Positions 3,303 to 35,103 of a stretch of DNA of 38,268 bases are shown here, in pieces. The translations under genes were made by a program, and so were the position numbers. Origin of the DNA: Spirochaetae bacterium HGW-Spirochaetae-4 (GTDB taxonomy: Bacteria > Spirochaetota > Spirochaetia > Sphaerochaetales > Sphaerochaetaceae); contig PGXU01000027.1 of NCBI GenBank assembly GCA_002839335.1, positions 1 to 38,268 of the forward strand, given 5' to 3'. The first letter of the stretch is position 1; the number at the start of each line of letters is the position of its first letter. Below the pieces are notes generated by a model. That model saw only the letters and a list, made by a program, of their open reading frames with translations. It made no database searches and had not been told where the DNA came from.

Positions 3303-3674
3303 TCAGTTTCTATTGAATTGAGCTCTCATGTAGTCTTCACCACAGTTGATGAACTTGGCCTTGCAATGGCAAAGATACTCTTCGTGCAGCAGCCGTAATG
3401 TCACACCTGGTTTGGCAAGTTCCTTTTGAACGTATTCGTATTCCGCAAGTTCATAGATGACATTGGCCGCCTGCTTCCCTGGAAACAGGAGTTTGTAGAC
3501 TTCGTGTTCGGGTTTGTCCTTCACCTTGTCATAGGTGAGCTGCAAAGAATCCGCCACCTTGCAGACATCAAACACTGACTGCTTTGCAATGCGGTAGGTG
3601 CTGGCAATGGCATGCATTGAATCACCAGCTTGACGACGCTCGAGAATGATCTTCACTCTAATCGGTTTCGCCAT
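3303..3674 (-). pseudogene. istA: Truncated IS21-family transposase (IstA, N-terminal quarter)
   Basis: The 123-residue product matches the N-terminus of IS21-family IstA: MAKPIRVKIILERRQAG, a helix-turn-helix around 20-45 (HAIASTYRIAKQSVFDV), and the typical YEYVQKELAKPGVTLRLLHEEY at about 78-99. Full IstA is about 500 residues with an integrase-type DDE core, so three quarters are missing and no catalysis is possible. The frame ends a few codons after the region usually read as YMRTQF, next to the left-end repeats, so an internal deletion probably joined it to that end. AAGGAG precedes the ATG at 3674. The surviving piece keeps only the DNA-binding region and could at most bind the repeats. 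Confidence 0.8.
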
Positions 3675-3919: not shown

Positions 3920-4240
3920 TTATCGCATCTGTTCGGCTGTTTTCTCGTTCTTGCCAGCGTCTCGCTTCATGCTGTAATGGGTGCTCTTGCGAACCTTGTT
4001 CTCATATTCATCAAGTTCGATGTTGGTACGCGATTTCTTCATCTCCTGGACAAGGTCGAAGGTCTCCCTGTCGATGATGGCATCGTGATGATTATCCGAT
4101 CTTTGGACCTCGTAAGGATTGTTCCTGACCCTCTTCATCGCGGGATACTCGGCACCTACCGTCTGTCCAAAGATCGAGTCTCCCGTATACTTTTCATTGG
4201 AGAGGATGTTTTGTCCAGATCTAGAATAAATTTCCTTGAC
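3920..4240 (-). pseudogene. Fragment of a large serine recombinase
   Basis: The minus frame encodes about 106 residues typical of the recombinase domain that follows the catalytic domain in large serine recombinases: IYSRSGQNILSNEKYTGDS, then NNPYEV, then NHHDAIIDRETFDLVQEM and RKSTHYSMKR. The N-terminal catalytic domain with its active serine is missing, and the frame ends where the zinc-ribbon region would begin. The open frame runs a further 40 codons upstream to 4360, but those residues do not look recombinase-like and overlap the promoter and first codons of the ABC binding-protein gene. It is therefore a decayed fragment. With the neighbouring IS21 remnant it marks this stretch as a site of repeated insertion. 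Confidence 0.75.
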
Positions 4241-4264
4241 AGCTCCAGTAACGCATTTTATACT
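4236..4264 (+). promoter_or_regulatory. Near-consensus sigma-70 promoter of the ABC operon
   Basis: TTGACA at 4236-4241 and TATACT at 4259-4264 are separated by exactly 17 bases. Transcription should begin near 4271, inside the first of two palindromes, and run into the binding-protein gene at 4323. The -35 box lies at the boundary of the recombinase fragment. A promoter this strong next to operators suggests tight repression rather than activation. Confidence 0.75.
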
Positions 4265-4270
4265 GAAACA

Positions 4271-4306
4271 TATTCTAATAGAGAATACTGTTCTGTATAG
4301 CAGAAC
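4271..4306 (+). promoter_or_regulatory. Two tandem operator-like palindromes (likely IclR-type)
   Basis: Site A is TATTCTAATAGAGAATA at 4271-4287, with 6-bp arms and a 5-bp centre. Site B is GTTCTGTATAGCAGAAC at 4290-4306, also with 6-bp arms and a 5-bp centre. Their centres are 19 bp apart and they cover the predicted transcription start. Fifteen bases of site A recur in the promoter of the IclR gene at 35051, and site B resembles the palindrome at 34022-34038. Each of the two clusters concerned encodes an IclR protein. Binding by IclR is inference; the repeats themselves are seen directly. Confidence 0.65.
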
Positions 4307-4322
4307 GAAAAGGGAGGAGATT

Positions 4323-5606
4323 ATGAAATCTTTGAAAAATGGGATTGTCATAGGAATCATTATGACAATGATGGTGGCGGGGGCCTCAATGCTCTTCGCC
4401 GGTGGATCGGCTGAAACATCTCAAGAATCTCAAGGTATCGACATGGTGTTCTGGATCTTCCTGAACCCCGAATCGACTGAGGATCCGAGAAGTATCGTTT
4501 TGAAGGAAATTGTTGAGGAGTACAATGCAAACAACCCCTATGGAAATACCATAACGGTTGAAAGCATTCATTGGAGTCGATTTGAAGCTCAAGCAATACA
4601 AGCAGCTGCAGCAAAATCCGGTCCTGACATCATAAACATGTACAGTGATCAATTGAAACAACACATCGCAGGCGGCACAGTACAAGCAATGACTAAATAT
4701 GCCGAAGATTTCCTTGCAACGATACCTGACTACGTCTATACCGTTGATTCTTTAAAAATCAATGGTGATATCTATTCGTTACCATGGGAAAGTAGAACTT
4801 TTGTTCATTGGTATCGATCTGACATTTTCAATAGAGCCCCCGCAAGCCTCGAGGATCTTGCAGATCGTTCTGGAAAAGAATCTGATGCCAATATGATGGG
4901 ATTCGTGATCGGATTGTCGGATGGTTCGAATGCAGCGAGTTTCATGGAATCATTCATTCCCCTCATCCGTTCGGCAGGGGGAGATCTATTCGATTCGAAT
5001 GGTAAGGCAATATTCAATAGTGAAGCTGGGGTGAAGGTACTGGAGTATCTCAAGTCACTTATTGCGAAGAATGCGATGAACAGTGCGTCACTAAGCTTGG
5101 TGGTTGATGATATTATCGACGGATTCAAAGCTGGAACCATCTACTCGATGAATGCTGGAACACAAAGGGCTGCTGCAATACGACAGTCTTCATTGAACAA
5201 CCATATCGAATCTGCACCGATTCCTGGATTTGTAGAGGGTACTCCCGCTCCTGCATTGGTAGCTGGACAGACTTTGGGCATAGGAAAATTTGCAAAAGAC
5301 CCCGCAATGGCCTTTGATTTCATCAAATACTTCTATTCTGTTGAAAATCAAACAAAATGGTTAAAAGCAAATGTGCTTCCTGCACGTGCGGATGTGTACA
5401 ACGATTCTGGCATTAAACAATTGCCAAATTATGACGAGCTGAAAATGTGGAACGAATACGCTGCAACTGGAAGCGTTACGTTCTATCCCGACGATTACAC
5501 AGAAATGGCTGTTCGTCTGGCGAAAGCCGCTCAAGAAGCGATCTTCCGCAATACCCCAGCAAAAAAGGCACTCGATGAGGTTGCTAACTGGTATAACAAC
5601 AAATAA
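4323..5606 (+). CDS. Carbohydrate ABC transporter substrate-binding protein (family 1)
   Basis: Periplasmic binding protein of an ABC sugar importer, 427 residues, typical for extracellular family 1 proteins. Residues 1-26 form a signal peptide with a basic start, a hydrophobic core and an end at MLFAGGSAE; there is no lipobox cysteine at that point. The mature part starts with the usual strand (IDMVFWIFLNPESTED) and contains IYSLPWESRTFVHWYRSDIF near 145-165, a common ligand-binding region of the family. The ATG at 4323 follows GGGAGGAGA. It is the first gene after the strong promoter and operators, followed by an FAD oxidoreductase, an IclR regulator and the two permeases. The ligand is unknown. 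Confidence 0.9.
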   Translation: MKSLKNGIVIGIIMTMMVAGASMLFAGGSAETSQESQGIDMVFWIFLNPESTEDPRSIVLKEIVEEYNANNPYGNTITVESIHWSRFEAQAIQAAAAKSGPDIINMYSDQLKQHIAGGTVQAMTKYAEDFLATIPDYVYTVDSLKINGDIYSLPWESRTFVHWYRSDIFNRAPASLEDLADRSGKESDANMMGFVIGLSDGSNAASFMESFIPLIRSAGGDLFDSNGKAIFNSEAGVKVLEYLKSLIAKNAMNSASLSLVVDDIIDGFKAGTIYSMNAGTQRAAAIRQSSLNNHIESAPIPGFVEGTPAPALVAGQTLGIGKFAKDPAMAFDFIKYFYSVENQTKWLKANVLPARADVYNDSGIKQLPNYDELKMWNEYAATGSVTFYPDDYTEMAVRLAKAAQEAIFRNTPAKKALDEVANWYNNK

Positions 5607-5633
5607 TTGAATATTTAAACGGGTAGGTATTTC

Positions 5634-7118
5634 ATGCGTGATTTTGATGTAATTGTCGCCGGCGGAGGTCCGGCAGGCATCATGGCGGCCCTTGCGGCCG
5701 CCAAGGTTGGGGTGAAAGTGCTTATTATTGAACAAAATGGTTTCCTTGGGGGAGCCTCCACCGCGATGTCCACCGGACCGGTATCACCATTTCACTTTCG
5801 AAATGAACAGGTGGTCAAAGGGATTCCTCAACAGTTCATGGATGCACTAGTTGCTGCAAAAGGTAGCACCGGACATATGAAAACACTCGATCCATATGGA
5901 AGTGGTGATAGTCTGGGCTTCTTCGACAGGGAAAAGTATAAACTGGTGGCAGCCACGATGTTGGAGGATGCCGGAGTCAGGATGCTATTCCACTCGTTTA
6001 TTTCTGGAGTCTCTTTGAATGGAAAAACCGTCACAGGTGTAACAGTCACTAATAAATCAGGGCTGAGAACCTACAGTTCATCGATCGTCATCGATGCAAC
6101 CGGTGATGGCGATGTGGCTGTCATGGCCGGTGCAGAATACATTAAAGGCGAAAAGGATTCTGGGCTTATGCAACCTTGCTCTGCCATGTTTGAAATGGCA
6201 AATGTTGATGAATCAAAGCTATATCGCTATGTACTTGATCATCCAGAAGAATTCGAATGGAAAACCGATGCGATTCCGTTAAGAGCTTTCGATTCCAGGC
6301 TGAAGAAAAACTACTTTGTCATCCAAGGGTTCAAGACATTGGTACAACAAGCAATGGATAGTGGTGAACTGAGATTCGGCAGGAATTCATTATTGATGCT
6401 GAATGGCGTGAACCCGCATAGCATGCATTTCAATTCAACTAGAATAACTGGGATTGATGCGACCGACGCAGAACAATTGACAAAAGGAGAGCTACTCGGC
6501 AGAAACCAAATTGATTCGGTGTCCGAATTTTGCATCAAATACATGCCTGGATTCGAACATTCCTATGTTTCCCGAACCAGTAGCTATTTAGGAGTCCGAG
6601 AAACACGGCATATTATTGGAGAATATATCCTAAATACAGAAGATGTTGTCGCAGGAAGGAAATTTTCCGATGTAGTGAGTCGGGGATACTTCCCAATCGA
6701 TATCCATTCCTACTCGAGCCCAAACGGATACGATGAAGGAGGTGGAAGCTGGGTCACATTACAGGATACGTACGATATTCCCTATCGCTCTCTCGTTCCA
6801 AGGACAGTAGATGGTCTTGTACTCAGTGGCCGTGTGATCTCGGGTACGAGTGGAGCTCACGGATCATATCGAACCCAAGGTGGAATCATGGGAATTGGTC
6901 AGGCTTCAGGTATTGCAGCTGCGATGTGCGTGTTGGATAACGAACAGCCTAGATATCTCGAAGTGAAAAAGCTGCAAAAGAAATTGATATCATTCGGTGC
7001 CTCAGTTTATCGCGATCCTGAGGCTATGGAAAAAGAAGAGGCTATCGCTCGTAAGGCAGTAGAGAATTTTCTCGCAACCCATAAAGAGTTCATCACCGAT
7101 CCAACGAAAATCCAATGA
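5634..7118 (+). CDS. FAD-dependent oxidoreductase (FAD_oxidored-like)
   Basis: A 494-residue flavoprotein. The N-terminal Rossmann fold shows GGGPAG at 10-15 and the ribose-binding Glu33 at the end of the second strand. FLGGASTAMSTGPVSPF follows, and the second FAD motif IDATGDGDVAVMAGAEY lies near 152-168. A C-terminal GTSGAHGSYRTQGGIMGIGQASGIAAA segment closes the FAD site. The pattern is that of the FAD_oxidored family, often found in sugar and cyclitol gene clusters, where substrates are rarely known. It lies 27 bases after the binding-protein gene and 70 bases before the IclR gene. It probably oxidises the imported compound or a derivative in the cytoplasm. No signal peptide is visible. 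Confidence 0.85.
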   Translation: MRDFDVIVAGGGPAGIMAALAAAKVGVKVLIIEQNGFLGGASTAMSTGPVSPFHFRNEQVVKGIPQQFMDALVAAKGSTGHMKTLDPYGSGDSLGFFDREKYKLVAATMLEDAGVRMLFHSFISGVSLNGKTVTGVTVTNKSGLRTYSSSIVIDATGDGDVAVMAGAEYIKGEKDSGLMQPCSAMFEMANVDESKLYRYVLDHPEEFEWKTDAIPLRAFDSRLKKNYFVIQGFKTLVQQAMDSGELRFGRNSLLMLNGVNPHSMHFNSTRITGIDATDAEQLTKGELLGRNQIDSVSEFCIKYMPGFEHSYVSRTSSYLGVRETRHIIGEYILNTEDVVAGRKFSDVVSRGYFPIDIHSYSSPNGYDEGGGSWVTLQDTYDIPYRSLVPRTVDGLVLSGRVISGTSGAHGSYRTQGGIMGIGQASGIAAAMCVLDNEQPRYLEVKKLQKKLISFGASVYRDPEAMEKEEAIARKAVENFLATHKEFITDPTKIQ

Positions 7119-7188
7119 TTACTGAAGGTTTGCGTGTTATTATTCTGCCTGTAGGCAATACTTTGATTTTTTTAGGAGAACGACGGGT

Positions 7189-7989
7189 ATGAAAGAAGCG
7201 AGGGAAAAGCAAATCGAGTCTGTGGTGAAATACAAATCATTGAATAAGGCTTTGAGAGTTTTAGAATGTTTCACAATAGAAAATCCTGAATTGGGAATTT
7301 CCGATATCTCGAAAAAGCTTGGACTTAATAAAAGCAATGTATTCGATATCCTCGCAACATTCGAAGCGAGAGAGTATGTACATAAAGATCCTATGAGCAA
7401 CAAATACTCACTCTATAATGCTTCTTTACGACTTGCAGGAGTCATTAATAGAACGCGGCTTAGCAAGGATGAAGTATCGATTATGGTACGAGATCTTGCA
7501 CGTGAAACGAACGAGACAGTCTATTACGGAATCCTATATAACAACCATGTTATGTATCTTGACTACATGTCTGCCGCCACTGGTGTTGTTCCAATGCAGT
7601 TTATCGGTGCTCCCGCACCACTGCACTGTACTGCTACAGGTAAGGCAATCCTTTCGGTAATGCGTAAGGAAGATGTTGAAGATGTGGTTTCGCTTGGTTT
7701 GGCGCGATTCACTGAGAATACTCTCGCTGATCCTGACAAATTACTGGCAGATCTGGAGAAAATTCGACAACGAGGATATTCGATCGATAATATGGAGCAC
7801 GAATACGGGATAAAAGGAATTGGTATGGTGGTGAAGGACACTACCGGACATCCCTATGCGGCCGTGAGTGTTTCTGGTCCTTCATTGCGTTTCAATGAAG
7901 AATCCATACCGGAAATTGTACGTTTGATCAGAAGACACAGCGGAAAGCTCTCCACTGCGATACTCAACGAACAAGAGGGGGTTATGTGA
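7189..7989 (+). CDS. IclR family transcriptional regulator
   Basis: A 266-residue IclR protein. A winged helix-turn-helix spans about 15-80 (LNKALRVLECF, then GISDISKKLGLNKSNVFDILATFEAREYV). It is followed by the GAF-like effector domain with GAPAPLHCTATGKAILSVM and YSIDNMEHEYGIKGIGMVV. Its DNA-reading helix (LGLNKSNVFDIL) nearly equals that of the IclR protein at 34284-35051 (LDLNKSNVFNMI), so the two may read related operators. The ATG at 7189 follows TAGGAGAA. Unusually, it sits between the binding-protein and permease genes, and its stop overlaps the permease start, so the regulator is probably produced in step with the transporter. A weak hairpin (TGCCT...AGGCA) precedes it. Confidence 0.92.
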   Translation: MKEAREKQIESVVKYKSLNKALRVLECFTIENPELGISDISKKLGLNKSNVFDILATFEAREYVHKDPMSNKYSLYNASLRLAGVINRTRLSKDEVSIMVRDLARETNETVYYGILYNNHVMYLDYMSAATGVVPMQFIGAPAPLHCTATGKAILSVMRKEDVEDVVSLGLARFTENTLADPDKLLADLEKIRQRGYSIDNMEHEYGIKGIGMVVKDTTGHPYAAVSVSGPSLRFNEESIPEIVRLIRRHSGKLSTAILNEQEGVM

Positions 7990-8855
7990 AGAAAAGTAAT
8001 GAATTCTTACTACCGTCGATACTGTTTCTTGGTCCGACTTTGTTATTGGTGACTTTGTTCATTCTAATTCCCATTGTCATTGCATTTCGAACCAGCTTAC
8101 ACGCAACCACATATGCAAATATCGATGCATTCATCGGTTTCGAGCATTACAAATCGATCTTAGGATCATCCGATGGATGGATGGATATTTTTAATTCGGT
8201 CACCTATGTGATGTTTTCTCTGACGATTGTAGTACCATTAGGTATCTTGGTAGGAGTACTCTTGAATCGCAAGATCAGGGCAAGAACTCTTTTCAGAACC
8301 ATACTTATCATTCCTTGGGTATTGTCCCAAACCGTAACAGCCCTACTTTGGAAATGGGTACTCAACTCAAGTTTCGGACCCATTGCACTTTGGTGGCAAC
8401 AACTCACTGGTAGCACGATTGATTTTTTCAACTCGGAAATCGCTGCAAGAGTAACAGTAGTTTTCGCAAACGCTTGGAACACATACCCTATCATCGTTAT
8501 CATCACTTTAGCCGCATTACAAATCATTCCCGAGGAATTATTCGAAGCCGCAAAAGTAGACGGAGCCTCACGGCGAAGCACCTTCTGGCATATTACCCTG
8601 CCTTTACTCATCCCTGCTATCAGCACAATTGTAATTATGCAGAGCATCGAATACTTCAACATGGTAACACTGATATATGTTCTGACCGCTGGCGGACCAT
8701 TCAACGCGACAACCACATTGAGTGTCCGCGCATTTCGAACAGGATTCGACTTCTGGCATATAGGGCTCGGTTCGGCTTTCAGCTTCATTATCTTCATGGT
8801 TAACATCATCTTTAGCAGCTTCTACATTAGGGCATTGAAGGGGAAGAATGCATGA
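7986..8855 (+). CDS. Carbohydrate ABC transporter permease (first, MalF/UgpA-like)
   Basis: Inner-membrane permease of 289 residues with about six membrane helices. The EAA loop that docks the ATPase reads EAAKVDGASRRSTFWHITLPL near 186-206. It starts with GTG at 7986, inside the stop region of the IclR gene (four-base overlap), and its own stop overlaps the next permease by four bases. Both overlaps imply translational coupling. It should pair with the following permease to form the channel for the solute delivered by the protein encoded at 4323. No ATP-binding gene lies in the operon, so a shared MsmK/UgpC-type ATPase encoded elsewhere is expected from knowledge of this transporter family. 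Confidence 0.92.
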   Translation: MKKSNEFLLPSILFLGPTLLLVTLFILIPIVIAFRTSLHATTYANIDAFIGFEHYKSILGSSDGWMDIFNSVTYVMFSLTIVVPLGILVGVLLNRKIRARTLFRTILIIPWVLSQTVTALLWKWVLNSSFGPIALWWQQLTGSTIDFFNSEIAARVTVVFANAWNTYPIIVIITLAALQIIPEELFEAAKVDGASRRSTFWHITLPLLIPAISTIVIMQSIEYFNMVTLIYVLTAGGPFNATTTLSVRAFRTGFDFWHIGLGSAFSFIIFMVNIIFSSFYIRALKGKNA

Positions 8856-9700
8856 AACAAAGAAAATCTTTAGACTGGAACTTTACTGTGGAGGCTTCCA
8901 CCTATACCATACTCGCTATTGCTGTCATATTCACGAGTTTTCCTATCCTCTGGGGGTTGACCACCTCCTTCAAACCGCTTGATCAGATCAACGTATTCCC
9001 TCCCACACTATTTCCAAAACCAGTGGTATTCGATAGCTATATCAAGGTGCTCTTCAGATCAAACTTCAAGGTCTATCTTTTCAACAGTATCTTCATGACT
9101 GGGTTTACAGTTCTCGTATCTACCGCTTTGGCCTCACATGCTGGCTATGCACTCGCTAGGTTCAAAATTCCCCATCGGAAGAATATAATGTTTGCATTAC
9201 TCATGATGGGGATGGTGCCAATTGTTGCTCTTTTGATCCCTTTGTATCTTCTATCAGTCCAGACAGGCCTTTACAACACCCGTTTGGTAATATTATTGAT
9301 CTATGTTGCCTGGCGAACACCAATCATGACATGGATACTCTATGGGTTTTTCAGCCAAGCACCAATTGAGATTGAAGAGGCGGCACGGATCGATGGATGC
9401 ACCCCTGTGGCAACTTTTTACAAAATCATGCTTCCGATCTCCCAATCAGGTCTGGTGTCTAGTGCATTGCTATCGGCAGTATTCGTATGGAACGACTTCC
9501 TCATTGCATTCACCTTCACAACGAAGGAAAATCTGCGCATGGTCTCCGTAGGACTATACAACTACATCACACAGTACGGCATCATTTGGGGAGAACTCAT
9601 GGCAGCAGCTATTGTTTCCATTATCCCAATGATTGTCCTATTCATCCTTATGCAAAGAAAGTTCGTGAGTGGTCTCGCATCTGGTGCAGTAAAAGGATAA
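8852..9700 (+). CDS. Carbohydrate ABC transporter permease (second, MalG/UgpE-like)
   Basis: The partner permease, 282 residues, with a first membrane helix near 18-40, WGLTTSFKP typical of MalG-type subunits just after it, and the EAA loop EAARIDGCTPVATFYKIMLPI near 173-193. It starts at ATG 8852 in an ATGA overlap with the previous gene. It is the last gene of the operon; about 700 bases with no intact gene follow. No clear T-tailed terminator was found directly downstream. Family assignment is firm and substrate unknown. Confidence 0.92.
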   Translation: MKQRKSLDWNFTVEASTYTILAIAVIFTSFPILWGLTTSFKPLDQINVFPPTLFPKPVVFDSYIKVLFRSNFKVYLFNSIFMTGFTVLVSTALASHAGYALARFKIPHRKNIMFALLMMGMVPIVALLIPLYLLSVQTGLYNTRLVILLIYVAWRTPIMTWILYGFFSQAPIEIEEAARIDGCTPVATFYKIMLPISQSGLVSSALLSAVFVWNDFLIAFTFTTKENLRMVSVGLYNYITQYGIIWGELMAAAIVSIIPMIVLFILMQRKFVSGLASGAVKG

Positions 9701-28128: not shown

Positions 28129-29001
28129 TTAAAGCCAAGACTCAACTATTTTCAGAGCTTCCCGAACATTTCCCTGCTGTTGATTACTCAACGGTAAGAA
28201 TGGTCGCCGGCATGGTCCACAAGGAACACCCAATACCTCCATAGCATATTTTGCCGCTGAAAAAATACCGTTCTCCACCAACGCTTCAATGAAAGCATTT
28301 AAAGTGGATTGGACCTCCCTAGCCTGAGTCAAATCACCATGAGTAAACCGATCACGAATCTCCTTGAATATTCGTGGACAGATATTTACCGTTGTACCTA
28401 TCGTGGCATGTGCCCCGGCAGTCATACTGTAGAGGTACATCTCATCAAACCCGTTGTACAGGATTTTGTCGGGGAAAGCTTCGTGTATGCGTTCCAATTC
28501 ATAGAGATTCATTGAGGTGTGTTTGATCCCAATGATCCTGGAATCGTTGAGGAGAGATGAATTCATCTTCTTGGAGAAGGTAATACCCGTAAACTGGGGG
28601 ATGTTATATACAATTACACCAATATGTAAAGCTTCCACAACCGAGCGATAATGGTGTTCGACCTCCATGGGTGTGTAGCTGTAGTAGATAGGTGGTATGA
28701 GCGAGACGGCTTGGGCACCACAAGCTTGGGCATGGATGGATAAATCAACCACCGAAGCAGTGCTTAAAGCTCCAGTATGCACAATGAACGGCACTTCGCC
28801 TGACACCTCGGAGGCTACTACTTCCACCAATCTCTTCCTTTCGTTCCTCTCCAAGAGCAGTCCCTCGCCAGAGGATCCGCAACAATAGAAGCCTTCAACT
28901 CCCTGGTCCAATTCATAGTTTACCAACTTTACAAGAGCCTGTTCGTCAAGGTTTCCCTGTTCATCCACAGGAGTCAATAGGGCTGCATAGATTCCATTCA
29001 T
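28129..29001 (-). CDS. NanA-like aldolase (DHDPS/N-acetylneuraminate lyase family)
   Basis: A 290-residue class I aldolase. Schiff-base Lys160 lies in GIKHTSMNLYELERI and the catalytic Tyr132 in VYNIPQFTG; GSSGEG at 42-47 binds the keto-acid carboxylate. LYNGFDEM and the run to the C-terminus resemble N-acetylneuraminate lyase more than dihydrodipicolinate synthase. Family members cleave sialic acid or 2-keto-3-deoxy sugar acids to pyruvate and an aldehyde or sugar. With an enolase-type dehydratase in the operon, a 2-keto-3-deoxy acid is the more likely substrate here, and no sialic-acid kinase or epimerase is present. ATG 29001 follows GGAGAAG. Last gene of the minus operon. Confidence 0.85.
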   Translation of the reverse strand: MNGIYAALLTPVDEQGNLDEQALVKLVNYELDQGVEGFYCCGSSGEGLLLERNERKRLVEVVASEVSGEVPFIVHTGALSTASVVDLSIHAQACGAQAVSLIPPIYYSYTPMEVEHHYRSVVEALHIGVIVYNIPQFTGITFSKKMNSSLLNDSRIIGIKHTSMNLYELERIHEAFPDKILYNGFDEMYLYSMTAGAHATIGTTVNICPRIFKEIRDRFTHGDLTQAREVQSTLNAFIEALVENGIFSAAKYAMEVLGVPCGPCRRPFLPLSNQQQGNVREALKIVESWL

Positions 29002-29106
29002 CACTTTACTTCTCCATATATAGTTGCATTTCCACCAGATTCCCAGGCTTCAAGGCCAGATTTGATCATCCGGTTAATCAGATCTACTTTAAATTACAAG
29101 AGGCAA

Positions 29107-29937
29107 TTACCAAGCTGTCCAACCACCATCCACAACCAGATTCGCCCCTGTCATATATTTTGATGCATCGGAAGCGAGAAAAATAACAGCACCATTGTAT
29201 TCGTCAGCCTGCGCCATTCGTCCCATGGGCATACGCTGGCAGTAGTTTCTTTGGAATTCCTCATCTTGCGTTTCTCTAAAGACACCAGAAGGGGTAAGGA
29301 TGTTCACGCGTATTCCAGATCTTCCCCAGTAGGTAGCGCAATAGCGGGTTAGATTGTATAGCCCGCTCTTGGCCGCCGAATAAGCCACTGGCTTGATAAA
29401 TGGAACGCCAGTCTTCTCCTTCTTATATGCATAAATGTCTTGCACCGGACTCACCATTCCGTAGATGGATCCGATATTGATAATCGATCCCCCGCTAGTA
29501 TTGGCAATCATTAAAGCTCCTACTGCTTGGGTCATGAGGAAGGTGCCCACAAGGTTGACTTCAATGACTTCCCGGAACACTTCCTCGGGAAACTGTTCGA
29601 AAGGACCCGAAACCTCGGGAGGCGCACTGGGCTGGGTATCAATACCTGCGTTATTCACCAGAACTTCTGGAGTCCCCCACTGTTGTACAACTTCCTTAAG
29701 ACCACGATCGATAGATGCCTTGTCGGCAATATTGACAGAGTGTATTGAAAGATTTTCGCTTGCAGCAAGTTCTGGGCCAAAGACAGCTAGCTTTCTTTTT
29801 TCGTCTGCCGAGCGAGAAAAAATAGCGATTCTTGCTCCACGTTCATGGAATTCCTTTACGAATTCGGCACCAATTTGGCCAAAGCCCCCAGTGATTACGA
29901 TAATTTTCCCAGTTATATCAAATAAGGTATCTTTCAT
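29107..29937 (-). CDS. SDR family oxidoreductase (sugar-acid type)
   Basis: A 276-residue short-chain dehydrogenase. Cofactor loop TGGFGQIG lies at 16-23, NNAG follows in the middle, and YSAAKSG holds the catalytic Tyr and Lys. The unusual insertion before it (YAYKKEKTGVPFIKPVA) and the end DGGWTAW resemble uronate/gluconate-type sugar-acid dehydrogenases such as those annotated D-mannonate oxidoreductase. GGAGG precedes ATG 29937. It lies 20 bases after the dehydratase gene and 105 bases before the aldolase, in a transport-dehydration-cleavage operon. It may interconvert a sugar acid and its keto form before dehydration. Confidence 0.87.
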   Translation of the reverse strand: MKDTLFDITGKIIVITGGFGQIGAEFVKEFHERGARIAIFSRSADEKRKLAVFGPELAASENLSIHSVNIADKASIDRGLKEVVQQWGTPEVLVNNAGIDTQPSAPPEVSGPFEQFPEEVFREVIEVNLVGTFLMTQAVGALMIANTSGGSIINIGSIYGMVSPVQDIYAYKKEKTGVPFIKPVAYSAAKSGLYNLTRYCATYWGRSGIRVNILTPSGVFRETQDEEFQRNYCQRMPMGRMAQADEYNGAVIFLASDASKYMTGANLVVDGGWTAW

Positions 29938-29957
29938 GGTTTTCCTCCAGCACACAT

Positions 29958-31055
29958 TTAGGTAGTGAGTCTATCATAGTTGAGTTTCAAACCGATTCCC
30001 GGGGTCTCTGGGATGGTCAAAATGCCGTTTTTGGGCATGGGTGGGTCGATAAATGCAATATTCGAGACCTCTTCGAACATGAAGAGTCGTTCTAAGAAAA
30101 TTCCGTTTGGAGCAGGAGAGAGCACATGCATGTGCATGTATTCCATTCCATGGGGAGCGAAGTAGATATTCCAAGCCTGGGCCATGGCAATTATCTTCTG
30201 CATTTCGGTGACTCCACCGCACCGAGTGACATCACACTGCAAATAGTCGACAGCATTATTAATCAGTAGATCCCGTACTCCGAAACGAGTATATTCATGC
30301 TCACCGGTACCGACGGGTGTACGGGACATGGAACGGAACCGTGAGAGTCCGGGAATGTCGTCTGCAAACACCGGCTCTTCAAAAAATATGATATCCAGTT
30401 CTTCCAAGCGTTCGGCCAACTGTATAGCCGTAGCAGCGGTGAAGGCGTTGTTTGCATCCACCATCAATCCGATTTTTGGTCCTATTGCGTCACGAACAGC
30501 TTGTATTCTAGCAACATCTTCCCCAAGGTTCTTGCCACCGTCGACTCCTACTTTCAGCTTTATCTGTTTATACCCTTTGGCAACCATGTCCAAAGCTTCG
30601 GCAACCAGTTCGTCTTTTGTATAACTGGTCCAACCACCACTTGCGTAAATCGGCAACTCTGTACGGGAACCACCAAGGAGTCGATAGAGAGGAAGTCCAA
30701 CCATTCGGGCCTTGATGTCCCATAGGGCTATATCGATTGCGCTGTAGGCGCAGAAGGCAAGTCCTTTTCTTCCGACACCACGCATGTAATGGAAGATTTC
30801 TTCATAGATGGATTCGGTCTCAAAAGGATTTCTTCCAAGAATTTTCGGTCCAATACCTTTTAGCACCATCTCGCGAATAGCTTCACCGCCGACCTCATGG
30901 TATGTGGTTCCTATACCCTTTAGCCCGTCATTCGTAGTGATTTCCACAATGACATAGCCGATGGTTTCAACGTTCCTGGTAGAGTCGGCGAAATTACCCT
31001 TTATCCTAGTCTCCACAAGATAGACTTGAATATCGCTTACTTTAGTACGCAACAT
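29958..31055 (-). CDS. Enolase-superfamily sugar-acid dehydratase (mandelate racemase type)
   Basis: A 365-residue protein of the mandelate racemase/muconate lactonising branch. The catalytic KxK is Lys166/Lys168, metal ligands are Asp200, Glu226 and Glu252, and the His-Asp dyad of the mandelate racemase subgroup is seen as Asp275 and His302 (APHGME). The branch dehydrates sugar acids to 2-keto-3-deoxy acids or racemises alpha-hydroxyacids. GGAGG precedes the ATG at 31055. It follows the TRAP permease by 19 bases. With the aldolase downstream, dehydration of an imported sugar acid is the simplest reading. The exact sugar acid cannot be read from the sequence. Confidence 0.9.
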   Translation of the reverse strand: MLRTKVSDIQVYLVETRIKGNFADSTRNVETIGYVIVEITTNDGLKGIGTTYHEVGGEAIREMVLKGIGPKILGRNPFETESIYEEIFHYMRGVGRKGLAFCAYSAIDIALWDIKARMVGLPLYRLLGGSRTELPIYASGGWTSYTKDELVAEALDMVAKGYKQIKLKVGVDGGKNLGEDVARIQAVRDAIGPKIGLMVDANNAFTAATAIQLAERLEELDIIFFEEPVFADDIPGLSRFRSMSRTPVGTGEHEYTRFGVRDLLINNAVDYLQCDVTRCGGVTEMQKIIAMAQAWNIYFAPHGMEYMHMHVLSPAPNGIFLERLFMFEEVSNIAFIDPPMPKNGILTIPETPGIGLKLNYDRLTT

Positions 31056-31074
31056 ATGTTCCTCCGTTTAATTA

Positions 31075-32352
31075 TCAACCAACTACCGAGGGCAACCATG
31101 TTGCCAGTCCCGGTATGAATGTGATCAGCAAAAGTGAAATGAATAGAGCAGGGAGATAGATGAGTATACCGGTGTACATATGGGTCAATTTCAGCTTAGC
31201 CACATTTGAGGTGACGAAGAGTGTCATACCTACCGGAGGGGTGACCAGACCTACACATAAATTGATAATCACCACGATACCGAAATGTAAAGGGTCGATG
31301 CCAAATTGGAGGGCAACTGGAAGCAATATCGGAACCATTATTAGCAAAGCTGGTGATTGGTCAAGCAGCATACCTACTATAAGAAGTAGGAAATTGACAA
31401 ATAGAAGGAAAAGCAACGGCGAATTGGCATAGTTGAGGAAGAATGCGGTTACCGTTTGAGGGATCCGCAAGGCAGTGATGACCCAGGCCATTGCCGTTGA
31501 GATGGCAATGATCACCATGACGTTTGCGGTGGTCTTGGCGGTATTCACCAGTGCTTGGTAAAAATCCTTCCAGTTCAAGGTCTTCAGAATGAACTTTGTA
31601 ACTAGAAGTGCGTACAATACTGCAACAGCGGCCGATTCTGTAGCAGTGAAAATACCCGAGACGATTCCGACAATAATGATAATCGGAAGGAGAAGGGATG
31701 GTAGCGTCTGGACAAACGAGTTCCATACCTCTCTCAGAGTGGCTGCCCTTTCCGATTTAGGGTAATCGTTTTTCTTGGCAACGATGAATACAGTAATTAT
31801 TTCAGCGATTCCAATGAGCAGGCCAGGTACGAATCCGGCTAGGAACATCTCACTAACCGATACATTCCCGGCAACGACAGCGTAAATGATCATAATGGTA
31901 CTTGGGGGAATGATGGGGCCTATGATAGCCGAGGCAGCGGTGGTTGATGCTGCGAATTTCTTGGGGTAGCCGGCGGTCTCCATCATGTCTATCTCGATCT
32001 TTCCCAGTCCGGCAGCATCTGCAGTCGCCGATCCACTGATCCCTGCGAAGAAAATTGACGCGAGTATGTTGACGTATGCTAATCCGCCGGTGATGTGACC
32101 CACGAGATTGTTGCAGAAATGGACAATCCGCTGGGTGATACCCCCGGTAGTCATGATTTCACTGGCCAGTATGAAGAGGGGTATTGCCAAGTAGACGAAA
32201 TTATCGACACCGGTGAACATTTTCAATGGGATTATCTGAAGATTGCCTCCAAGAACGCCAAAAGCGAAGATGCTGGTGATACCCATGGAAAAGAGCACAG
32301 GTAAGCCAATCAACATGGTGATGATGAAAAACAATAATATGATAAAAGCCAT
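31075..32352 (-). CDS. TRAP transporter large permease (DctM family)
   Basis: Large membrane subunit, 425 residues. Signatures are VYLAIPLFILASEIMTTGG, FFAGISGSATADAAGLGKIEIDMM and GPIIPPSTIMIIYAVVAG, with LGLVTPPVGM-like text near the end. It belongs with the small permease directly upstream (13-base gap) and the binding protein at 32942. It is diverged from both other DctM proteins of the window, so the three transporters serve different solutes. Confidence 0.93.
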   Translation of the reverse strand: MAFIILLFFIITMLIGLPVLFSMGITSIFAFGVLGGNLQIIPLKMFTGVDNFVYLAIPLFILASEIMTTGGITQRIVHFCNNLVGHITGGLAYVNILASIFFAGISGSATADAAGLGKIEIDMMETAGYPKKFAASTTAASAIIGPIIPPSTIMIIYAVVAGNVSVSEMFLAGFVPGLLIGIAEIITVFIVAKKNDYPKSERAATLREVWNSFVQTLPSLLLPIIIIVGIVSGIFTATESAAVAVLYALLVTKFILKTLNWKDFYQALVNTAKTTANVMVIIAISTAMAWVITALRIPQTVTAFFLNYANSPLLFLLFVNFLLLIVGMLLDQSPALLIMVPILLPVALQFGIDPLHFGIVVIINLCVGLVTPPVGMTLFVTSNVAKLKLTHMYTGILIYLPALFISLLLITFIPGLATWLPSVVG

Positions 32353-32365
32353 GTTTAACCTCGTC

Positions 32366-32905
32366 CTATTCGATAGTTCGTGATTCGAATGGTGCTATTT
32401 CTCCAACCGCCACCCCAATGATCTCCAAGATAGTCTCATAGGAGAGAAGGAGAATACCAATCATGGGAGCGGAAAACAGAATCCACCCGGGTGCCCTCAA
32501 TGTCGAGGAGTGGAAACGGGCATTTTGTTTGATCACCTGCAGTGAGTAGATAAACACCACTGCGAGGAAGACAATCACCAATATGCGGGAGATGTAGTAC
32601 ATGATGGTACGGTTTCTTATGCCCAGTTTATCGTAGATGTAGTTGATTGAGACCATGGAACCTTCGCGAAAGTTTACCCCGACTATAATGTATACCGTCC
32701 ACACGAGGAGATACCTAGCGAACTCTTCTGTAAATGGAAATGAGAAAGAGAAGTATTTTACGATCACGAATCGATACAACACCTGAAATAACAGCGTAAG
32801 GAAACAAATCAAGATGAAAAGCGCACTTACAGCTTCAAGTCCTTTTGCCAACATGGCCGAGCCACTATTCAGTTTTCTGTATATTCTTTTGCCTGGACTA
32901 TCCAT
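32366..32905 (-). CDS. TRAP transporter small permease (DctQ family)
   Basis: A 179-residue small permease with four hydrophobic helices and the DctQ segment FPFTEEFARYLLVWTVYIIVGVNFREGSMVSI near 58-89. GGAG lies upstream of the ATG at 32905. It sits 36 bases downstream of the binding-protein gene, with no hairpin between them, unlike the operon at 13694. Confidence 0.88.
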   Translation of the reverse strand: MDSPGKRIYRKLNSGSAMLAKGLEAVSALFILICFLTLLFQVLYRFVIVKYFSFSFPFTEEFARYLLVWTVYIIVGVNFREGSMVSINYIYDKLGIRNRTIMYYISRILVIVFLAVVFIYSLQVIKQNARFHSSTLRAPGWILFSAPMIGILLLSYETILEIIGVAVGEIAPFESRTIE

Positions 32906-32941
32906 GCAAGTACGCTCCTTTACACCAAATTTCTTTTGAGA

Positions 32942-33973
32942 TTATTTGCGATATGCGTCGAGCGCATCAATCAATGAATCGACCATCTTGTCACCAATTT
33001 CTGCTCGGACAAACGACTGGGTCGCGTTGAAGATGGTGCTGTGCCAAGTCTCCAAGGCTTCTGCTGTCGGCTGTGTGACTATCATACCTTGTTTCTTAAG
33101 GAATTCCAGTCCTTCTTTGTTGCGGATGGCAATGACATCGTTGGCAGCTTTTGTTGCCAATTTCGATCCTTCCATAACAACCTGTTGCAGGTCCTCGGGA
33201 AGCGATGTGAATACACCGTCATTGATGATGTAAGCCATGATGGAGGCCATATGTCCATCCAAGGTCAGGTACTTCTGTACTTCGAAGGTTTTATCCTGGA
33301 TGATATTGAGGATGGGGTTTTCTTGACCATCGACCACGCCGGTTTTCATAGCCATGTACATTTCAGATCCCGGCATAGGTACAGCTCGGGCGCCCATGGC
33401 TTCAACCATTCGGACGGATACCGGATTTTCCATGACACGGAATGTGATGCCGCGGGTGTCTTCCATGGTCTTCACTTCTCGGATCTTATTGGTAAAGTGT
33501 CTGAATCCATTTGAACCAGTGTTCATGATTCGTATGTTCGCTACATTGTTGACCTCTTCAAACATTGATTGTCCCCATTCTCCGTTTAGGACATCATTGC
33601 ATTCTTCAATACTGCCAAAAAGTCCGGGGATGGACAACAACATGGTCGGCTTGTAGATATTGTTAAGCATGCTGATGTTGATCACAGCCATTTCTATGGC
33701 TCCAGAAGAGACACCCTGCACAAACTCCGCGGCGTTGCCGAGTTGTCCGCCGGGGTAGATATCCACAATGATTCTTCCCTTGGACTGCTCTTCAACATAA
33801 TTCTTGAACACTTCTCCATACATGACATCGGGACTGTCGTTGGGGTCCATCGCTGTCGGGGTGTAAGCGAGTTTCAGGGTGTAGACCTTGTCTGCTTTAT
33901 CGACGGTTCCCTGCGCAAATAACAGCGTTGCGCTTGCAATGACCAATAATGCAATTGTCAAAGCTTTTTTCAT
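32942..33973 (-). CDS. TRAP transporter solute-binding protein (DctP family)
   Basis: A 343-residue periplasmic binding protein with signal peptide MKKALTIALLVIASATLLFA (1-20), cut before QGTVDKAD. Family marks are VDIYPGGQLGNAAEFVQGVSSGAIEMAV, ITFRVMENPVSVRMVEAMGA with the carboxylate-binding arginine, and GVVDGQENPI. GGAGG precedes the ATG. The palindrome at 34022-34038 lies 49 bases upstream, as expected for IclR control. It is the first gene of the six-gene minus operon. A carboxylated sugar acid is the likely ligand. Confidence 0.92.
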   Translation of the reverse strand: MKKALTIALLVIASATLLFAQGTVDKADKVYTLKLAYTPTAMDPNDSPDVMYGEVFKNYVEEQSKGRIIVDIYPGGQLGNAAEFVQGVSSGAIEMAVINISMLNNIYKPTMLLSIPGLFGSIEECNDVLNGEWGQSMFEEVNNVANIRIMNTGSNGFRHFTNKIREVKTMEDTRGITFRVMENPVSVRMVEAMGARAVPMPGSEMYMAMKTGVVDGQENPILNIIQDKTFEVQKYLTLDGHMASIMAYIINDGVFTSLPEDLQQVVMEGSKLATKAANDVIAIRNKEGLEFLKKQGMIVTQPTAEALETWHSTIFNATQSFVRAEIGDKMVDSLIDALDAYRK

Positions 33974-34283
33974 TTTCTTCCTCCTTAGGATGCTTCTGGC
34001 ATCGTGATAAAATAGTATGATGTTCTACAATACAGAACAGCATGCTAAATAAAATAACGCTATGCAAATTCTAGAAGAGGTCTGGGTATCTGTCAACAGT
34101 TTTTTTAGGGAAATTGCGTAAAGAAACGCCTTGGATTGAGAAGGATACAAATGGTTCGGACAGAAGAGACGACAATGTTGAATATTCCCAACCTGCGGGA
34201 GCTTCCATGAACGAAACGCAAATGTGTGTACGCAAAGAGAATCGGATCACAATCGCAGGGGTACTATATTTAGATTGTTGCGT
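33974..34283. other. Control region between the IclR gene and its TRAP operon
   Basis: About 310 bases with no supported gene. It holds the palindrome at 34022-34038 near the operon and a TTCTAGAA palindrome near 34068. The rest is the untranslated tail after the IclR gene; no strong terminator is seen, so read-through from the regulator into the operon is possible. Confidence 0.5.
34022..34038. promoter_or_regulatory. Operator-like palindrome upstream of the TRAP/dehydratase operon
   Basis: GTTCTACAATACAGAAC has GTTCT/AGAAC arms. Read toward the operon it gives CTGTTCTGTAT followed by AGAAC, matching site B at 4290-4306 over those parts. The adjacent IclR gene is the likely source of its regulator. 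No clear -35/-10 pair could be assigned beside it. Confidence 0.6.
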
Positions 34284-35051
34284 CTATGTCCTATTCCGTA
34301 TTTCGAAAGACGCCGATATCAAGTTGCGTGCCAATCTTTCAATATCGTCATCAGGAATATGTTGCACGGGGCCCGAGACACACATGCCTCCTATCAGCCG
34401 CCCGTCACGTGCTCTCACGGGAACACCGATACATCGTATCCCTTGCTCGTGTTCGCTATTATCTACAGAGTAACCCCGAGAGGCTGAAAGTTTAAGGTCC
34501 CGCATCAACTCCTCTACCGAAGTTAGGGTGGTCTTGGTGAAAGGAACCAGGTGGTCGTCAAGGTGGACGGAGACCTCCTCTTTAGGAAGAGCGCTGAGTA
34601 TGGCCTTACCCAGGGAGGTGCAGTAGAGCGGGGCTTTTTCCCCCATAAGGGATCGCACCAGATAGTCGTTGCTTATGCTCTTGGGATAAGTGTTGTACAG
34701 ATAAAGGACCTGTGTTCCATGCATGACACCAAAGAGAACAGCATGATTGAGTTCGTTGGAAAGACGTTGCATGATCTGCATGACAATCGCCTGATATTCT
34801 ATCCGGCTGGTAATGACGTATGAGAATTCCAACATCTTGAGGGAAAGCCGATAATGATCTGTCGTAGGATTTTTCTCGACATAGCCGGCTGCTACAAGGG
34901 TAGAGATCATGTTGAAAACATTGCTCTTGTTCAGGTCCAGTTTTTTCGCAATTTCAGTTATACCGAGGTCAGGGGTCTTTGCAGTAAAGCACTCCAGTAT
35001 CTTAAGACACTTATATAATGATTTGACTTTCACTTCACCTGTATTTTCCAT
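34284..35051 (-). CDS. IclR family transcriptional regulator
   Basis: A 255-residue IclR protein. The winged helix covers about 8-72 (LYKCLKILECFTAKTPDLGITEIAKKLDLNKSNVFNMISTLVAAGYV). The effector domain carries MGEKAPLYCTSLGKAILSAL and YSVDNSEHEQGIRCIGVPV. It resembles the IclR protein at 7189 strongly in the reading helix, less in the effector domain, so the two may share operators but answer different effectors. GAGG precedes the ATG. Its promoter (AGTCAA/AGAATA read on plus) overlaps a 17-bp palindrome at 35065-35081, which fits autorepression. It is upstream of and codirectional with the TRAP/dehydratase operon. Confidence 0.92.
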   Translation of the reverse strand: MENTGEVKVKSLYKCLKILECFTAKTPDLGITEIAKKLDLNKSNVFNMISTLVAAGYVEKNPTTDHYRLSLKMLEFSYVITSRIEYQAIVMQIMQRLSNELNHAVLFGVMHGTQVLYLYNTYPKSISNDYLVRSLMGEKAPLYCTSLGKAILSALPKEEVSVHLDDHLVPFTKTTLTSVEELMRDLKLSASRGYSVDNSEHEQGIRCIGVPVRARDGRLIGGMCVSGPVQHIPDDDIERLARNLISASFEIRNRT

Positions 35052-35064
35052 TATTCATTACCTC

Positions 35065-35081
35065 GTTCTCTATTAGAATAC
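35065..35081. promoter_or_regulatory. Operator-like palindrome over the IclR gene promoter
   Basis: Read toward the gene it is GTATTCTAATAGAGAAC. Its central 15 bases, TATTCTAATAGAGAA, are identical to site A at 4271-4285 and lie in the same orientation relative to the gene controlled. It covers the -10 box. Confidence 0.65.
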
Positions 35082-35103
35082 ATGGTAAAAATAATTTAGT
35101 CAA
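35075..35103 (-). promoter_or_regulatory. Sigma-70 promoter of the IclR gene
   Basis: On the minus strand TTGACT (35103-35098) and TATTCT (35080-35075) are 17 bases apart. The -10 box falls inside the palindrome 35065-35081, so a protein bound there would block RNA polymerase. Confidence 0.65.

Follow-up and report, generated by a model that had tools for sequence, protein, structure and literature searches.

Can the promoter of one importer operon be read by the regulator of another? The question is raised by a 38,268-nt stretch of DNA from Spirochaetae bacterium HGW-Spirochaetae-4 (hereafter the window), which bears an ABC importer cluster and a TRAP importer cluster, each with a gene for an IclR-type regulator (IclR1 and IclR2, respectively), and in which similar palindromes stand in front of the ABC operon, the TRAP operon and iclR2. 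A sequence-only reading had taken this likeness as a sign of cross-regulation or of a shared regulon. We compared the sites and the two regulators within the genome and with those of related bacteria. The best explanation of the whole, which we consider probable, is that the palindromes would be operators of an IclR subfamily with the recognition helix LNKSN, each regulator acting mainly on its own cluster and IclR2 perhaps also at the ABC promoter.

Methods

The genome searched comprises 3.6 Mb in 143 contigs and is 99.86% complete; every genome used here may be incomplete. Words common to two promoters were compared with those of 300 Markov-shuffled promoter pairs. To find relatives of the regulators outside the genus, whole genomes were searched, and the LNKSN loci of G792, G701, G739 and G743, fetched after the motif had been defined, served as out-of-sample loci.

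Results

Gene clusters and promoters

The features of the window are the following; G613 is a genome from the same class but another family.

4236-4264, plus strand: predicted ABC operon promoter, TTGACA-17-TATACT (11/12 consensus matches)
4271-4287, plus strand: site A, N5 element TATTCTAATAGAGAATA, with box 1 at 4272-4276 and box 2 at 4282-4286
4282-4306, plus strand: putative three-box operator, AGAAT-ACT-GTTCT-GTATAGC-AGAAC (boxes 2, 3 and 4), 17/25 bases identical to the G613 operator
4290-4306, plus strand: site B, N7 palindrome GTTCTGTATAGCAGAAC
4323-5606, plus strand: ABC sugar-type solute-binding protein (PF13416/PF01547), first gene of the operon presumed to be controlled
5634-7118, plus strand: FAD-dependent oxidoreductase (PF12831, 387 bits)
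7189-7989, plus strand: IclR1 regulator (PF09339, PF01614), helix LNKSNVFDILATF
7986-9700, plus strand: two ABC permeases (7986-8855, MalF/UgpA-like, and 8852-9700), both with syntenic relatives in G613
28129-33973, minus strand: TRAP operon encoding DctP, DctQ, DctM, an enolase-superfamily dehydratase, an SDR and a DapA/NanA-type aldolase
34022-34038, minus strand: putative N7 operator of the TRAP operon, GTTCTGTATTGTAGAAC, with a third box AGCAT at 34042-34046
34068-34096, minus strand: predicted TRAP operon promoter, TTGACA-17-TAGAAT (11/12 consensus matches)
34284-35051, minus strand: IclR2 regulator (PF09339, PF01614), helix LNKSNVFNMISTL
35065-35081, minus strand: N5 element of the iclR2 promoter, TATTCTAATAGAGAACG
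35075-35103, minus strand: likely iclR2 promoter, TTGACT-17-TATTCT, whose likely -10 box TATTCT is overlapped by the N5 element

The ABC and TRAP operators lie downstream of TTGACA-type promoters and start no more than about 30 bp from the -10 box, as a repressor site would. The substrate of the TRAP cluster is likely a sugar acid: the dehydratase is closest to L-talarate/galactarate dehydratase, and dehydratase, SDR and aldolase all score below the curated cut-offs.

A serine recombinase remnant (PF07508; window 3920-4360, minus strand) borders the ABC promoter. The part of it that matches stops a few bases short of the -35 box, so that the ABC cluster may be an insertion beside mobile DNA. 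A 123-aa frame (window 3303-3674, minus strand) resembles a helix-turn-helix transposase-type protein and has no Pfam match.

Rarity of the shared words

Site A is a perfect 6-bp inverted repeat of the class RTTCT-N5-AGAAY. On rechecking the sequence, the coordinates and letters given earlier for the four palindromes all matched, as did the 15 bases said to be common to site A and the iclR2 promoter site, TATTCTAATAGAGAA, and the letters said to be shared by site B and the TRAP site, CTGTTCTGTAT and AGAAC. The longest word common to any of the 300 shuffled pairs had 12 bases, against 15 for the site A/iclR2 pair; for the 11-base word of the site B/TRAP pair, 2 of the 300 reached at least this length. 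The 14-mer ATTCTAATAGAGAA of the N5 element occurs only twice in the genome, in the ABC and iclR2 promoters. In 138 relatives it gave five scattered single copies and one further copy in the sister genome G123, at the promoter of the iclR2 orthologue. The strict form GTTCT-N7-AGAAC likewise occurs only twice, in the ABC and TRAP promoters.

Degenerate forms are not special by count. RTTCT-N7-AGAAY was found 9 times in the genome versus 11 for the reversed control, and RTTCT-N5-AGAAY 27 times versus 6, most copies lying elsewhere with unrelated spacers. The degenerate counts were rejected as stand-alone evidence; the argument rests on position and exact letters. A scan of the genome with the consensus allowing one mismatch gave two extra matches and no further convincing site; the match inspected lay inside a coding frame. 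Copies of GTTCTGTATTGTAGAAC in G110, G111 and G116, considered as a conserved regulon, fall within transposase genes, IS3-like on inspection, and were judged to be chance occurrences. The word GTTCTCAGGAAGAAC is present in three copies on one contig of the genome (G000:C12, 17110, 20739 and 33695), apparently as a repeat unrelated to the operators.

The regulators and their subfamily

Both regulators belong to the IclR family, with PF09339 (HTH_IclR) and PF01614 (IclR_C) above the gathering score in each. The two had been described as having nearly the same reading helix, and LNKSNVF is indeed identical in IclR1 and IclR2. Judged from the relatives compared, the LNKSN helix is a trait of a whole subfamily and not of this pair alone. 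The two proteins share 33 of 56 residues over the helix-turn-helix domain and 64 of 189 over the rest (about 40% identity overall); a DNA-binding domain more alike than the sensor domain is as expected if DNA specificity was kept and, as we infer, the effectors differ. In a maximum-likelihood tree IclR1 groups with the G613 protein (support 99/95) and IclR2 with that of G667 (96/89), inside the group to which the regulators of family f3 belong (91/92). Having separate partners, the two are old paralogues rather than recent duplicates. A scan of named genomes with IclR1 and IclR2 as queries returned the sister MAG and distant IclR proteins only.

Relatives with the LNKSN helix occur in family f3 (genus g27) and family f29, mostly beside TRAP or other importer operons. 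Nine of the ten LNKSN loci, IclR1 and IclR2 counted, have a strict GTTCT-N7-AGAAC in one of the promoters of the cluster, and the tenth (G282) has a copy with one mismatch, whereas none was found at 67 IclR loci with other helices (297 kb in all), so that the motif goes with the LNKSN regulators. No N7 site was seen at the G667 locus, which has the helix TKSN and lies on a short contig. That the palindromes are operators of a Spirochaetota IclR subfamily with recognition helix LNKSN is a prediction well supported by about ten loci. The locus of G743 has its own N7 and N5 elements in tandem (centres 21 nt apart) beside a single subfamily regulator, with the third box absent.

At G282, short A/T-rich repeats with GTTCT/AGAAC half-sites stand in tandem near the IclR gene (L101, 4480-4725) and also around 1480-1540 of L145. 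At G500, a TRAP binding-protein region is present twice (L169, 6069-7354 and 10753-12368) on either side of the IclR gene, with the same first residues, either by direct duplication or as an assembly artefact.

A three-box operator with an additional box

In seven independent N7 sites read in the gene direction, a third half-site AGAAY was found exactly 3 bases upstream of GTTCT (offset -8), with 29 of 35 matches. Over all offsets the mean score was 12.1 (sd 3.0) and the next best 20, and none of 20000 shuffles reached 29 at any offset. The box is weaker in the out-of-sample loci (15/25 by the same count). It alternates in direction with its neighbours and keeps a fixed spacing beside the palindrome, in G613 as well. 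We propose AGAAY-N3-GTTCT-N7-AGAAC as the basic operator of the subfamily, its direction being presumably given by the third box.

The centres of sites A and B (4279 and 4298) are 19 nt apart, within the 18-22 nt of tandem IclR operators. The third box of the ABC promoter is at the same time the right half of site A, which argues against regarding A and B simply as separate operators. By this layout boxes 2, 3 and 4 form the predicted standard three-box operator, with box 1 (4272-4276) as an extra element that completes the N5 pair.

Comparison with relatives having one of the two clusters

In G613 the ABC cluster has the same gene order as in the window, with identities of 64% for the solute-binding protein, 54% for the FAD oxidoreductase, 54% for IclR1 and 55% and 50% for the permeases. 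Upstream lies TTGACG-17-TACAAT, followed by CGAAC-ATT-GTTCG-GTGATAC-AGAAC and the RBS; only 2 of 200000 shuffles of the upstream region contain such a three-box arrangement. Box 1 is absent from this operator, and no second close regulator of the subfamily was found in G613. The same three boxes in this genome point to a three-box operator that is ancestral to the ABC cluster and explicable without IclR2.

The sister genome G123 (HGW-Spirochaetae-2, PGXW01000047) has the TRAP-IclR2 cluster too, 96% identical at the DNA level, with an identical N5 site at the iclR2 promoter. IclR1 was not found in it; its other IclR matches reach at most about 30% identity to IclR2, whereas IclR1 has 40%. With the N5 site kept and IclR1 missing, IclR2 is the likely, presumed reader of N5. 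The iclR2 promoter of G123 is highly similar to that of the window, so that conservation of the N5 element is weak evidence of selection.

The TRAP operators of the window and of G123 (the latter at L064, 8731-8747) agree in their arms, and their near flanks differ by single bases. The 7-bp spacer is exactly reverse-complemented, the plus strand reading GTTCT-GTATTGT-AGAAC in G123 and GTTCT-ACAATAC-AGAAC in the window, and a tiny inversion between the arms would best explain the difference. It had been argued that all sites have the same orientation relative to the gene controlled. This is true of the letters in the present genome and is not conserved, the G123 spacer being inverted, so the orientation argument fails.

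Discussion

From the letters of the sites, their rarity, their spacing, their position at the promoters and their co-occurrence with one class of regulator, we infer the following scheme. A dimer or tetramer of the regulator would occupy the three-box operator downstream of the -10 box and block transcription of the importer operon until released by an effector, which is probably the compound taken up or something formed in its breakdown. IclR1 would primarily control the ABC operon (4323-9700), and IclR2 the TRAP operon (28129-33973) together with its own gene. Box 1 (4272-4276) would recreate in the ABC promoter the N5 element found elsewhere in the genome only at the iclR2 promoter, and IclR2 may thereby also bind the ABC promoter, which we hold to be somewhat less likely than not.

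How far the two circuits are connected depends on what reads box 1. Of the cross-regulation or shared regulon proposed earlier, a common operator class for two related IclR proteins was upheld over about ten loci, and its symmetric form was not. A single regulon over both importers, with both proteins binding all four sites, would agree with the identical LNKSNVF and with half-sites that are the same across the four operators. We consider it unlikely, since G613 (ABC cluster with an IclR1 orthologue) and G123 (TRAP and iclR2 operators with IclR2 only) have complete operators beside their own regulator, which suffices to explain each three-box operator, and no element common to both clusters specifically implies IclR1 at the TRAP cluster. 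Action of IclR1 there is possible through the common half-site, which is all that speaks for it. The sole argument for a link is the additional N5 box of the ABC promoter, and it suggests one direction only, from IclR2 to the ABC operon. The identical 15-mer, with IclR2 as presumed reader of N5, suggests that IclR2 acts on this operon, and such a one-way link from IclR2 to the ABC importer is our leading, still tentative, reading. It is quite possible that the regulators are instead strictly insulated, the likeness of the N5 elements being a by-product of the subfamily half-site: the three-box operators are ancestral in each cluster, and the N5 next to N7 beside the one regulator of G743 indicates that the ABC element may be read by IclR1 alone. 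Sharing of half-sites, however, does not by itself require the agreement of the two N5 elements over 15 bases, spacer AATAG included. A further step, in which an ABC importer bringing its own IclR was wired into a resident IclR2 circuit by the one extra half-site (4272-4276), is rather doubtful.

Recent duplication of one regulator-promoter block could also account for common sites, both clusters being on one contig and the recombinase remnant bordering the ABC promoter. We regard it as very improbable, because beyond the operator words the promoters have neither long common words nor extended similarity, and because the regulators, at about 40% identity, branch with different relatives (G613 for IclR1, G667 for IclR2). 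Least plausible of all, and barely credible, is that the palindromes are RNA hairpins acting as attenuators in the 5' leader. The N7 sites do lie in transcribed leaders, and one of them was marked as resembling a terminator, though on the other strand. Against this reading, a stem of 5-6 pairs is weak, the letters of the arms are conserved over about ten N7 loci with no paired changes, the third box would not pair, and the N5 site of iclR2 overlaps the -10 box.

Now that an IclR operator of Spirochaetota can be described by consensus, position and class of regulator, importer regulons there should become predictable from sequence. An ABC importer wired into the IclR2 circuit as described above, if real, would show in minimal form how a single added box lets a paralogous repressor capture an operon in nature. 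The system can also serve to test cleanly how far operators must overlap before cross-talk arises between two old paralogous repressors.

The operators can be placed among those surveyed by Suvorova and Gelfand (2021; PMC8222616), whose taxonomic table does not include Spirochaetota. Their group 1 motifs include a subgroup GTT-11-AAC (GTTYCRYW3RYGRAAC), three-box sites are reported in 32 groups, and 94 groups have tandem sites with a centre-to-centre distance of 18-22 nt. As in this subgroup, the N7 sites are 17-bp palindromes GTT...AAC with an A/T-rich centre, near a gene start and beside their own regulator; four of the five outer positions of each half match, whereas almost every site here has T/A in place of C/G at the fifth. 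The three-box operators of PcaU, PobR and HmgR similarly have alternating directions, with one pair spaced as in group 1 and one as in group 2; they differ in half-site letters, and a fourth box is present in the ABC promoter. GenR of Corynebacterium glutamicum, listed with ATTCC-N7(5)-GGAAT in Table 1 of the survey, has half-sites spaced by 7 or 5 bases like N7 and N5, but with another half-site, in control of gentisate use and with one regulator rather than two. KdgR, which responds to 2-keto-3-deoxygluconate, resembles the present system as an IclR protein encoded next to genes for a sugar-acid dehydratase and an aldolase; the two proteins of the window score 131.1 and 138.7 bits against NF011671, the NCBIfam model of KdgR, far below its cut-off of 275 and thus outside KdgR, and the operator is unlike the KdgR consensus. 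The main operator features fit published three-box and tandem IclR operators, except for the fifth half-site base; what ancestry would not lead one to expect is the extra left box (4272-4276), through which the ABC promoter comes to have the same N5 element as the iclR2 promoter.
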